Assembly (NCBI RefSeq): GCF_002205165.1
Contig: NZ_NIVS01000043.1
Span: forward strand, 1 to 64,000
Source: Stenotrophomonas maltophilia
GTDB lineage: Bacteria > Pseudomonadota > Gammaproteobacteria > Xanthomonadales > Xanthomonadaceae
Length of the DNA stretch: 64,000 nt
Direction of reading: 5' to 3'
The first letter of the stretch is position 1, and the number at the start of each line of letters is the position of its first letter. The notes under the pieces are model-generated. The model had not been told where the DNA came from and searched no databases. It saw nothing but the letters and a program-made list of their open reading frames with translations. Below are positions 18,982 to 25,072 of this stretch, piece by piece. The translations under genes were made by a program, and so were the position numbers.

Positions 18982-20130
18982 TCAGCGCAGACCCGTCTCG
19001 TTGCGCGCGATCACCAAGCGCTGGATTTCCGAGGTGCCCTCGTAGATCTCGGTGATCTTGGCATCACGGAAGTACCGCTCCAGCGGCATTTCCTTGGAAT
19101 AGCCCATGCCGCCGTGGATCTGCACCGCTTGGTGGGTGATCCACATCGCCGCTTCGGAGGCGGTCAGCTTGGCGATCGCCGCTTCATTGCTGAAACGCTT
19201 GCCCTGGCCCTTCACCCATGCCGCGCGCAGCGTCAGCAGCAGGGCTGCGTCCAGCTTGCATTTCATGTCGGCAATCTTGGCCTGGGTCATCTGGAAGGTG
19301 CCGATCGCCGCGCCGAAAGCCTTGCGGTCCTTCACGTATTCGATCGTCGCTTCATACGCAGCACGCGCGATACCGATTGCCTGCGAGGCGATACCGATAC
19401 GGCCTGCGTCCAGCACGCCCATGGCGATCTTGAAGCCCTCGCCTTCCTTGCCGACCACGTCATCGGCGGCCGCCACGTAATCCTGGAACTCGATCTCGCA
19501 GGTCGCCGAGGCGCGGATGCCCAGCTTCGGCTCGGTCTTGCCGCGGTGGAAGCCGGCCTTGTCGGTGTCGATCATGAACGCGGTGATGCCACGCGCGCCC
19601 TGGTCCGGATCGGTCATCGCAAACAGCACGATGTACTTGGCAACGGGGCCGGAGGTGATCCAGCTCTTCTTGCCGTTGATCACATAGGTGCCGTCGGCCT
19701 GCTTGACCGCGCGGCAGCGCATCGCCGTGGCATCCGAGCCGGACTGCGGCTCGGTCAGCGCGAACGCACCGATGGCCTCGCCCTCGGCGATGGCACGCAC
19801 GTACTTCTGCTTCTGCGCTTCGCTGCCATGGGTCAGGATGCCGTTGCAGAACAGCGAATTGTTGACCGACATGATCGTCGAATGTGCAGCGTCTCCGGCG
19901 GCGACCTCCACCATCGCCAGGACGTAGGCGATCGGGTCCATCCCCGCACCGCCGTAGGCTTCGGGCACTTCAATGCCCATCAGACCGTTCTCGCCCAGCA
20001 GGCGGATGTTCTCCAGCGGAAACTCGCCGGTGCGGTCGTGGTGTTCGGCGCTGGGCGCGATTTTCTCCTGCGCGATACGGCGCGCAACGTCCTGCAGCAT
20101 CAACTGCTCTTCGGTAAAGCTGAAATCCAC
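18982..20130 (-). CDS. Acyl-CoA dehydrogenase (short/branched-chain type)
   Basis: This flavoenzyme introduces the alpha,beta double bond into acyl-CoA and passes electrons to ETF. It is 382 aa, the standard length. The FAD/substrate signature FALTEPQSGSDA lies near residue 130. The catalytic glutamate is in the YEGTSEIQ motif near the C-terminus, the position used by short, medium and isobutyryl-CoA dehydrogenases. The start is GTG at 20130, because MDFSFTEEQ begins there and GGGAGGG lies five bases upstream. Substrate chain length cannot be read from sequence. It diverges from the SahR-like regulator across 148 bp. Confidence 0.9.
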   Translation of the reverse strand: MDFSFTEEQLMLQDVARRIAQEKIAPSAEHHDRTGEFPLENIRLLGENGLMGIEVPEAYGGAGMDPIAYVLAMVEVAAGDAAHSTIMSVNNSLFCNGILTHGSEAQKQKYVRAIAEGEAIGAFALTEPQSGSDATAMRCRAVKQADGTYVINGKKSWITSGPVAKYIVLFAMTDPDQGARGITAFMIDTDKAGFHRGKTEPKLGIRASATCEIEFQDYVAAADDVVGKEGEGFKIAMGVLDAGRIGIASQAIGIARAAYEATIEYVKDRKAFGAAIGTFQMTQAKIADMKCKLDAALLLTLRAAWVKGQGKRFSNEAAIAKLTASEAAMWITHQAVQIHGGMGYSKEMPLERYFRDAKITEIYEGTSEIQRLVIARNETGLR

Positions 20131-20246
20131 AACACCCTCCCGGGTACAGAGTGATAAAGGCCGCAGTGCGCGCGGCCCGGTCGGGCGATTGTACCGGGGG
20201 GCGGGGAAAGGACGCCTGACTTGACCGCACCGCCGCCAAAGGACGA

Positions 20247-20278
20247 AAATATCTCTATATCGCGATAGGTAGATATTT
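20247..20278 (+). promoter_or_regulatory. Concentric ArsR-type operator at the start codon of the sahR-like gene
   Basis: An outer repeat AAATATCT/AGATATTT (20247-20254 and 20271-20278) and an inner 10-bp palindrome TATCGCGATA (20258-20267) share the same centre, between 20262 and 20263. The outer arm ends directly before the ATG at 20279. Winged-helix ArsR proteins bind AT-rich dyads of this size. In this GC-rich genome such an AT-rich symmetrical block is conspicuous. It is probably the regulator's own operator, also serving the downstream metH genes. Confidence 0.7.
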
Positions 20279-21208
20279 ATGGATCTCGAGGACTGGTCCG
20301 TCCGGCTGAAAGTATTCGCCGACGCCACCCGGGTGCGCCTGCTGGCGCTGCTGGAACAGGAAGAACTCACTGTGGCCGAGCTGTCGGCCATCACCACGCT
20401 GGCCCAGCCGCGGGTGTCCACCCATCTGGCCCGGCTCAAGGAAGCCGGCCTGGTCCGTGACCGCCGCTCGGGCGTCTCGGCGTATTACCGCTTCGATGAC
20501 GCCGCGCTGGATCCGGCGCAGCGCGCATTGTGGCATGCCCTGAGCACCGGCAGCGATGACCCGCTGCTGCGCCAGGATGCTGAACGCGTGGCCGCGGTCA
20601 TGGCCAGCCGCGCTGCCGACCAGAACTGGGCAGATAGCGTTGCCGGCGACATGGAACGCCATTATTCCCCCGGCCGCACCTGGGAGGCGCTGGCGCGCAC
20701 CGCGCTGCCGCTGCTGGAAACCGGCGATGTGCTCGATATCGCCTCTGGTGACGGCGTATTGGCCGAACTGGTCGCCCCGCACGCCAAACGCTATGTCTGC
20801 ATCGATACCAGCGCGCGCGTGGTTGCCGCCGCCAGCGAGCGCCTGCGCCGGCTGGCCAACGTGGAAGTGCGCGAAGGCGACATGCACGCCCTGCCCTTCC
20901 CTGACCAGAGCTTCGATCTGGTGGTGCTGATGCACGCGCTGACCTATGCGGCCAAGCCGGCCCAGGCCGTCGCCGAGGGCGCGCGCGTGCTGCGCCCGGG
21001 CGGTCGCCTGCTGCTGTGCAGCCTGGCCCGCCACGAACACCGTGCGGCCGTGGACGCGTATGGCCACGTCAACCTTGGTTTCAGCGACAAGGAACTGCGC
21101 AAGTTCGTGGAGAAGGCCGGCCTGGTCGTCTCCAGCCTGGAGACGGTGACCCGCGAGAAGCGCCCGCCGCATTTCGAAGTCATTTCGCTGATTGCCAGCA
21201 AGCCCTGA
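20279..21208 (+). CDS. sahR: ArsR-family regulator fused to a SAM-dependent methyltransferase-like domain (SahR-like)
   Basis: This 309-aa protein has an ArsR winged helix (residues about 5-85; recognition region TLAQPRVSTHLARLKEAGLV) and a class I methyltransferase fold (about 135-290). The SAM motif is VLDIASGDGVLAE; the later motif is RVLRPGGRLLLCSL. No ArsR metal-site cysteines are obvious, so metal sensing is unlikely. Regulators of this design next to metH are described as SahR, controlling methionine/SAM recycling by sensing S-adenosylhomocysteine; I apply that by analogy. It lies 9 bp before metH and has a concentric operator at its start. Confidence 0.85.
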   Translation: MDLEDWSVRLKVFADATRVRLLALLEQEELTVAELSAITTLAQPRVSTHLARLKEAGLVRDRRSGVSAYYRFDDAALDPAQRALWHALSTGSDDPLLRQDAERVAAVMASRAADQNWADSVAGDMERHYSPGRTWEALARTALPLLETGDVLDIASGDGVLAELVAPHAKRYVCIDTSARVVAAASERLRRLANVEVREGDMHALPFPDQSFDLVVLMHALTYAAKPAQAVAEGARVLRPGGRLLLCSLARHEHRAAVDAYGHVNLGFSDKELRKFVEKAGLVVSSLETVTREKRPPHFEVISLIASKP

Positions 21209-21217
21209 GGTCTGCCC

Positions 21218-22324
21218 ATGCCATCCCTGCCCTGGCTCCACCCCGACCGCGTGCATGCGCTGGAAACGGCGCTGGCCCAGCGCATCCTGATCATCGATGG
21301 GGCCATGGGCACGATGATCCAGCGGCATGGGCTGGAGGAGGACGATTACCGGGGCGAGCGCTTCGCCGACGGCTACGACCACCAGCACGGGCCCGGCTGC
21401 GACCATGCCGTGCCCGGCGACGCCCCACAGGGCCATGACCTCAAGGGCAACAACGACCTGTTGCTGTTGACCCGCCCGGAGGTCATCAGCGGCATCCATA
21501 CCGCCTACCTGGAGGCCGGTGCCGATCTGGTCGAGACCAACACCTTCAATGCGACCTCGGTCAGCCAGGCCGACTATCACCTTGAACACCTGGTCTACGA
21601 GCTCAACAAGGCCGGTGCCGCCGTGGCGCGCGCCTGCTGCGATGCGGTCGCGGCGACCACACCGGGCAAACCGCGCTTCGTGATCGGGGTGCTCGGCCCG
21701 ACCAGCCGCACCGCCTCGATCAGCCCGGACGTAAACGATCCCGGCTTCCGCAACACTAGCTTCGATGCGCTGCGCGAGACCTATCGCGAGGCCATCGATG
21801 GCCTGATCGACGGCGGCGCCGACACCCTGATGGTGGAAACCATCTTCGACACGCTCAACGCCAAGGCCGCGCTGTTCGCCATCGAGGAAGTGTTCGATGC
21901 CCGCGGCGGGCGGCTGCCGGTGATGATCTCCGGCACGATCACCGATGCCTCCGGGCGCACCCTGTCCGGGCAGACGGCCGAAGCGTTCTACGCCTCGGTC
22001 GCGCATGGCCGGCCGCTGTCGATCGGGCTGAACTGCGCGCTCGGTGCCAGCGACATGCGGCCCCATGTGGAAACCTTGTCCACAGTGGCCGAGTGCCTGG
22101 TCAGTGCGCATCCCAATGCCGGCCTGCCCAATGCGTTCGGCGAGTACGACGAAACCCCGGAAGAAATGGCCACCACGCTGCGCGAATTCGCCAGCGCCGG
22201 TCTGCTCAACCTGGTGGGCGGCTGCTGCGGCACCACCCCGGCGCATATCCGCGCGATTGCCGAGGCCGTGGCCGATCTGCCCCCACGCCGCCTGCCGGCG
22301 CCACCGCTGGAAGACGCGGCATGA
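21218..22324 (+). CDS. metH: Methionine synthase, homocysteine-binding module (N-terminal piece of MetH)
   Basis: This 368-aa protein equals the first domain of cobalamin-dependent methionine synthase. It binds and activates homocysteine through zinc. The [13 protein letters not shown] start of the barrel is visible, and the three Zn ligands are present: Cys273 in NCALG and Cys336-Cys337 in GGCCGTTP. The gene ends at TGA 22322-22324, right after the domain. The remaining three domains are encoded by the next gene in the same frame. Split MetH is known in Xanthomonads, so this is probably functional rather than a pseudogene. It must pair with the downstream product. Confidence 0.92.

Positions 22325-22387: not shown

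Positions 22388-25072
<2,685 letters not shown>

Follow-up and report, generated by a model that had tools for sequence, protein, structure and literature searches.

The nested palindrome at positions 20247 to 20278 of the window (the whole 64-kb stretch of DNA that was analyzed) is, with high probability, the autoregulatory operator at which SamR blocks the promoter of samR-metH1-metH2, and SamR appears likewise to repress metK, metF, the metX-metB operon, and a TonB-dependent receptor gene, with a ligand tuning its binding. The finding is largely ordinary, a SamR site on SamR's own promoter. The regulator had been predicted in 2014 on the basis of four genomes (PMC4239095), and the present data back that prediction at the sequence level in 54 genera. 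Three details deserve to be retained: the TonB receptor, the SAM-I riboswitch on which one site is stacked, and the order of the half-sites.

The dyad and the samR promoter

The first-pass annotation described two nested inverted repeats that share one center, are symmetrical at 13 of 16 positions, and end at the base preceding the ATG of a regulator gene, and the sequence bears this out. The nested palindrome, AAATATCTCTATATCG/CGATAGGTAGATATTT, has two arms of 16 nt each (20247 to 20262 and 20263 to 20278) that are 81% complementary with a gap of 0. Its outer arms, AAATATCT and AGATATTT, match perfectly over 8 nt, and the inner 10-bp palindrome, TATCGCGATA, occupies the middle of the dyad at 20258 to 20267. 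The samR ATG (20279 to 20281) follows directly. Under a first-order Markov null, symmetry at 13 of 16 positions inside the 148-bp intergenic stretch has a P value of 0.0015. As symmetry of this degree is present at four places in the window, it is by itself weak evidence and does not single the site out.

Conservation and recurrence before other methionine genes are strong evidence for the dyad, more so than symmetry. Of 119 family genomes, 118 encode the SamR regulator, as does every one of the 54 genera that were counted from good assemblies, and the dyad lies upstream of the regulator gene in all 80 relatives (one family, 54 genera) whose upstream region was read. The near-invariant letters of the 28-mer are ATC at positions 3 to 5 and 11 to 13 and GAT at positions 16 to 18 and 24 to 26. 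On the forward strand, the left ATC-N10-GAT unit of the operator (20251 to 20266) is intact in 79 of the 80 samR sites and the right unit (20259 to 20274) in 75. A position weight matrix built from these 80 sites in both orientations, the window site included, gives the window site a score of 45.0, while 2 Mb of random sequence gives none above 9 bits. The 28-bp pattern, with up to three mismatches allowed, occurs once in the 4.44-Mb genome to which the window belongs. A palindrome arisen by chance would agree with the four equally symmetrical places in the window, but its probability is negligible, as it is refuted by the conservation in 80 of 80 relatives and the recurrence at methionine genes. 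That the palindrome is the regulator's own operator, as had been proposed, is very probable, and autoregulation by blocking of the promoter is likely.

A promoter scan predicts, on the forward strand, a −35 hexamer TTGACC for samR-metH at 20221 to 20226 and, after an 18-bp spacer, a −10 hexamer GAAAAT at 20245 to 20250 that overlaps the left end of the dyad. In close relatives, this −35 hexamer is conserved, and so is its distance from the dyad. With the −10 placed there, the predicted transcription start falls within the dyad. Relatives differ in how far the 28-mer stands from the start codon; the distances span 0 to 79 bp and are 0 to 4 bp in most genomes. In 14 relatives the start codon lies 9 to 79 bp away, yet the gap between the dyad and the −35 hexamer is fixed at 22 to 23 bp, with a weak −35-like hexamer in one of the 14 (L034); in more distant family members this gap is wider, at 24 to 31 bp. 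Since the −35 gap is constant while the ATG gap varies, the dyad of near relatives takes its phase from the promoter, not from the ATG, and its contact with the ATG is incidental and no general feature. The earlier view that the operator is placed to block initiation directly is likely to hold for promoter blocking, with the predicted −10 and +1 covered, but the site is set by the −35 and −10 and not by the start codon.

In the window, the repeat adjoins the start codon and may take in the ribosome-binding site, which would suit an RNA hairpin in the samR leader that masks this site in place of a protein operator. Such a hairpin has very little probability, as the primary sequence is conserved beyond mere pairing, the distance of the site from the ATG reaches 79 bp among relatives while its place behind the −10 is kept, and the same sequence stands over the −35 of metX. 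In addition, the predicted start falls inside the dyad, so that the left arm would be missing from the transcript. No Rfam match was found in the window, which speaks against a hairpin of this kind and against any riboswitch at samR-metH.

The acyl-CoA dehydrogenase gene on the reverse strand (18982 to 20130; PF00441, PF02771, and PF02770) had been suggested to share control. The genes are divergent, and its GTG start (20130) lies 116 bases before the dyad. This suggestion found no support, and a shared operator is very unlikely. The predicted −10 of the dehydrogenase gene, TACAAT (20193 to 20188, reverse strand), recurs before samR in most relatives. Some 53 bp separate it from the dyad, which would leave the dyad well upstream of that promoter. 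In many relatives (L006 to L017, L020 to L023, L028, and L032), a separate palindrome, CCATTCGCATGCGTATG, lies about 60 to 90 bp upstream of samR and covers the promoter of the dehydrogenase gene. It is absent in the window and is probably the site of another regulator.

Sites before other methionine genes

The target scan covered ten genomes, four of the same genus as the window and six of other genera. SamR-type sites stand before metK, metF, and the metX-metB operon in all ten, and those in the genome of the window score 21.4, 13.5, and 17.2, respectively. Some metF and metX sites score 6.7 to 14, with the lowest metX and metF scores (6.7 and 8.3) near the random tail, and these sites count because of their position and conservation only. 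The right ATC-N10-GAT unit is intact at metK and metF in 10 of 10 genomes and at metX in 7 of 10, and the left unit at metK in 1, at metF in none, and at metX in 2. A strict one-unit pattern, CATCNNNATNRARNGATA, with 0 mismatches, is found at exactly four places in the 4.44-Mb genome, namely, metX (C5:74567), metF (C59:93976), metK (C59:109570), and C22:14120, and its reversed control gives no match there. The pattern was written after the met sites had been seen, so that only C22:14120 is independent of it.

The first-pass annotation had expected the same dyad before metF, ahcY, metE, and other methionine genes. The expectation was correct for metF and, among the other genes, for metK and metX-metB, but it failed for ahcY and metE. 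No SamR site precedes ahcY in nine of the ten genomes, that of the window included; the sole one (G010, L125) lies about 239 bp upstream, scores 20.9, and is directly upstream of a SAH riboswitch. As a SAH riboswitch is present at ahcY in all six loci scanned, the absence of this gene from the regulon says little. At metE, a SamR site is found in none of the six genomes that have the gene, again including that of the window. A metE site in the SamR regulon has been reported chiefly for Xylella, and metE is mainly controlled by MetR in this group (PMC4239095), so that a missing metE site does not exclude SamR membership. A single pattern match upstream of metE was seen in G044 (L100), with a score of 16.5.

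The sites lie right behind the −10 at samR and metK and reach into the −10 at metF, whereas at metX the right end of the site is part of a TTGACA −35 box. All of these placements overlap the core promoter, as would be expected of a repressor. In the Stenotrophomonas and Xanthomonas loci, TTGACA lies 222 to 234 bp before the metX ATG, a position consistent with the start site measured for the met operon of X. campestris, which has a 5′ untranslated region of 190 nt (PMC6230763).

Downstream of the metX-metB site, a SAM-I riboswitch (RF00162, 68 to 78 bits) is found in 10 of 10 genomes, with about 30 bp between the site and the aptamer; in the genome of the window it is located at L098:1498-1677 (G000:C5). 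The operon resembles the met operon of X. campestris in that a homoserine acyltransferase gene and metB are joined to a SAM-I aptamer, here in all ten genomes. The papers on that riboswitch (PMC7270179 and PMC6230763) do not mention SamR, whereas in the loci studied here the −35 is overlapped by a SamR-type site. The stacking of a predicted repressor site on the riboswitch is an apparently unreported detail that would place both in series in one operon.

The SamR protein, its relation to SahR, and its possible ligand

The gene behind the dyad (20279 to 21208, forward strand) encodes a protein of 309 amino acids with an ArsR-type winged helix (PF01022, residues 15 to 60, E value of 1.5e-14) and a class I methyltransferase-like domain (PF08241, residues 152 to 245, E value of 5e-24). 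Downstream on the same strand, metH is divided into two genes. metH1 (21218 to 22324; PF02574) corresponds to the N-terminal part of metH models and encodes the homocysteine S-methyltransferase part of methionine synthase; metH2 (22388 to 25072; PF00809, PF02607, PF02310, and PF02965) encodes the pterin-binding, B12-binding, and activation domains and scores above the metH cutoff. The proposed ArsR-methyltransferase regulator at the head of the metH genes is thereby supported. SamR is identical at 308 of 308 residues to the protein of Stenotrophomonas bentonitica VV6, which places the window in Stenotrophomonas, in a close relative of that species. A protein 96% identical to it is found in a record titled Bacillus subtilis SK7B5 (JAHREJ010000038.1, L201), probably a contaminated or mislabeled assembly.

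The AlphaFold model of SamR has a mean pLDDT of 83.9, but its pTM of 0.56 and a low-confidence linker (residues 116 to 135) make the placing of the two domains unreliable. Among solved structures, the model matches Rv2258c with SAH best and, after it, numerous methyltransferases with bound SAM or SAH, and the fold also matches winged-helix proteins; the full-length TM-scores of these matches are only 0.4 to 0.5. A sequence search of solved structures retrieved single-domain relatives of either half only and no ArsR-methyltransferase fusion of the SamR kind.

Leyn et al. introduced SamR in 2014 as a predicted regulator of Xanthomonadales, distantly homologous to SahR and with a 24-bp palindrome before samR-metH1-metH2 (PMC4239095). 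The published regulon, drawn from four genomes of that order, has a core of samR, metH1, metH2, metB, metF, metK, and metX2, with metE and hom also given as targets (PMC4239095). The present locus agrees in its Xanthomonadales-type host, in a distant SahR homolog adjoining metH1 and metH2, and in sites at metK, metF, and metX2-metB. Positions 20251 to 20274 read ATC...GAT over 24 bp, contain the two ATC-N10-GAT units, and fit the published palindrome. The regulator is very probably SamR, and the site would be an operator of the published, predicted kind. The main text of the regulon papers (PMC4239095; Leyn et al. 2016, PMC5343134) names neither a TonB receptor nor stacking on a SAM-I riboswitch, both of which are seen here.

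SahR, the SAH-responsive ArsR-type repressor of Desulfovibrio and others, likewise joins an ArsR helix to a methyltransferase-like domain, is linked to metF and metH, and has a palindromic operator. A SahR proper at this locus would leave its operator on SAH binding and control the classic SAM-cycle set, including ahcY. The two-domain architecture is the same, the targets metF, metH, and metK are in common, and the recognition-helix core Q-x-R-x-S-x-H is shared with SahR-type proteins adjoining metF and metH. The assignment is nevertheless unlikely. The identity of SamR to the sampled SahR-type proteins is 31 to 37%, and these homologs, in other gammaproteobacteria, adjoin metF or metH and have ATATAAAGATATCTTTATAT-like sites, whereas the SamR sites are of another length, have their half-sites in another order, and do not show the 20-bp palindromic form of SahR. 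A SamR-type site is lacking in nine of ten genomes at ahcY, a core SahR target that carries its own SAH riboswitch here, and in all six genomes at metE. The earlier SahR-type reading was thus right in kind, but the protein is SamR, and two of the three targets predicted for it were wrong.

The half-site ATCTTTATAT follows its complement in the SahR-type sites and precedes it in the SamR sites. This apparent inversion is a seemingly unreported detail. Leyn et al. described ATC-10 nt-GAT as common to the gammaproteobacterial SahR motif (PMC4239095), which is hard to reconcile with the SahR-type sites sampled here.

We deduce binding and repression from what the sequences show: a conserved dyad that is phased with the promoter and recurs before methionine genes, and a two-domain protein. 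SamR would bind the dyad through its ArsR-type winged helix and, lying over the −10 and the start region of samR-metH1-metH2, would keep RNA polymerase from starting there. From the promoter-overlapping sites it would also repress metK, metF, metX-metB, and the TonB receptor gene, and a ligand in the methyltransferase-like domain would set the tightness of binding. As to this ligand and the direction of its action, SAH as a releasing ligand has about an even chance, SAM as a co-repressor is a possible but weaker candidate, and an effector other than these two is rather unlikely.

The authors who named SamR favored SAM over SAH because metK, but no other SAM-cycle gene, was in the regulon (PMC4239095). 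In X. campestris, 1 mM methionine had no effect on met promoter fusions, whereas a translational fusion of the leader was down 98% (PMC6230763). To judge from the spacing, the fusion fragments probably hold SamR units. The indifference of these fusions to methionine argues against SAM as a co-repressor at this promoter and would fit SAH, and with it SahR proper, better. Control at this promoter may be weak, or the signal may be other than SAM, and we lean slightly to SAH. The effector question is sharpened in that SamR would act on methionine and SAM synthesis and leave ahcY to the SAH riboswitch, with the reporter data speaking against a simple SAM co-repressor.

A TonB-dependent receptor gene as a candidate target

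The match at C22:14120-14137 (G000; L280 and L287), outside the window, is of the SamR type and lies upstream of a TonB-dependent receptor gene that is encoded on the opposite strand. The N-terminal 472 residues of this receptor are matched in 16 of 60 family genomes, with one of the 16 matches being without its N terminus. A site of the form taatATATCGCTTCATCCGGATGGAT lies 26 to 159 bp upstream of all 13 close orthologs (at least 56% identity, complete N terminus) and of neither of the two homologs at 44 to 45% identity. The receptor sites score anywhere between 1.2 and 23.3 on the matrix, so that it is their conservation in position and sequence that makes the case.

The plug domain is similar to those of both B12 and siderophore receptors. 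Because btuB is under MetJ control in other gammaproteobacteria (PMC4239095), B12 is an appealing guess for the substrate, but only a guess. No relevant paper came up in a literature search for a methionine-linked TonB receptor in Stenotrophomonas. The receptor appears to be a previously unreported, conserved bearer of a SamR-type site, and would extend the methionine regulon to a candidate receptor for uptake.

A more speculative proposal, put forward tentatively, is that SamR reads the SahR half-site inverted, SahR sites having ATATAAAGAT and then ATCTTTATAT and SamR sites having ATCTYTATAT, a CGCG-like center, and the complement. The dyad would then be two ATC-N10-GAT units interleaved 8 bp apart and able to take two dimers, and the regulon would have reached the TonB-dependent receptor gene. 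The inverted order and the two-unit reading are drawn from few, AT-rich sequences and are to be taken as hypotheses. If true, outer-membrane uptake would be under methionine-cycle control in Stenotrophomonas and Xanthomonas.

A weak pattern match is also present in the genome of the window at G000:C3:96592 (score of 8.0), and symmetric matches to the SamR pattern with two mismatches at G029:C1:927672 and G044:C29:279860 are possible extra targets.
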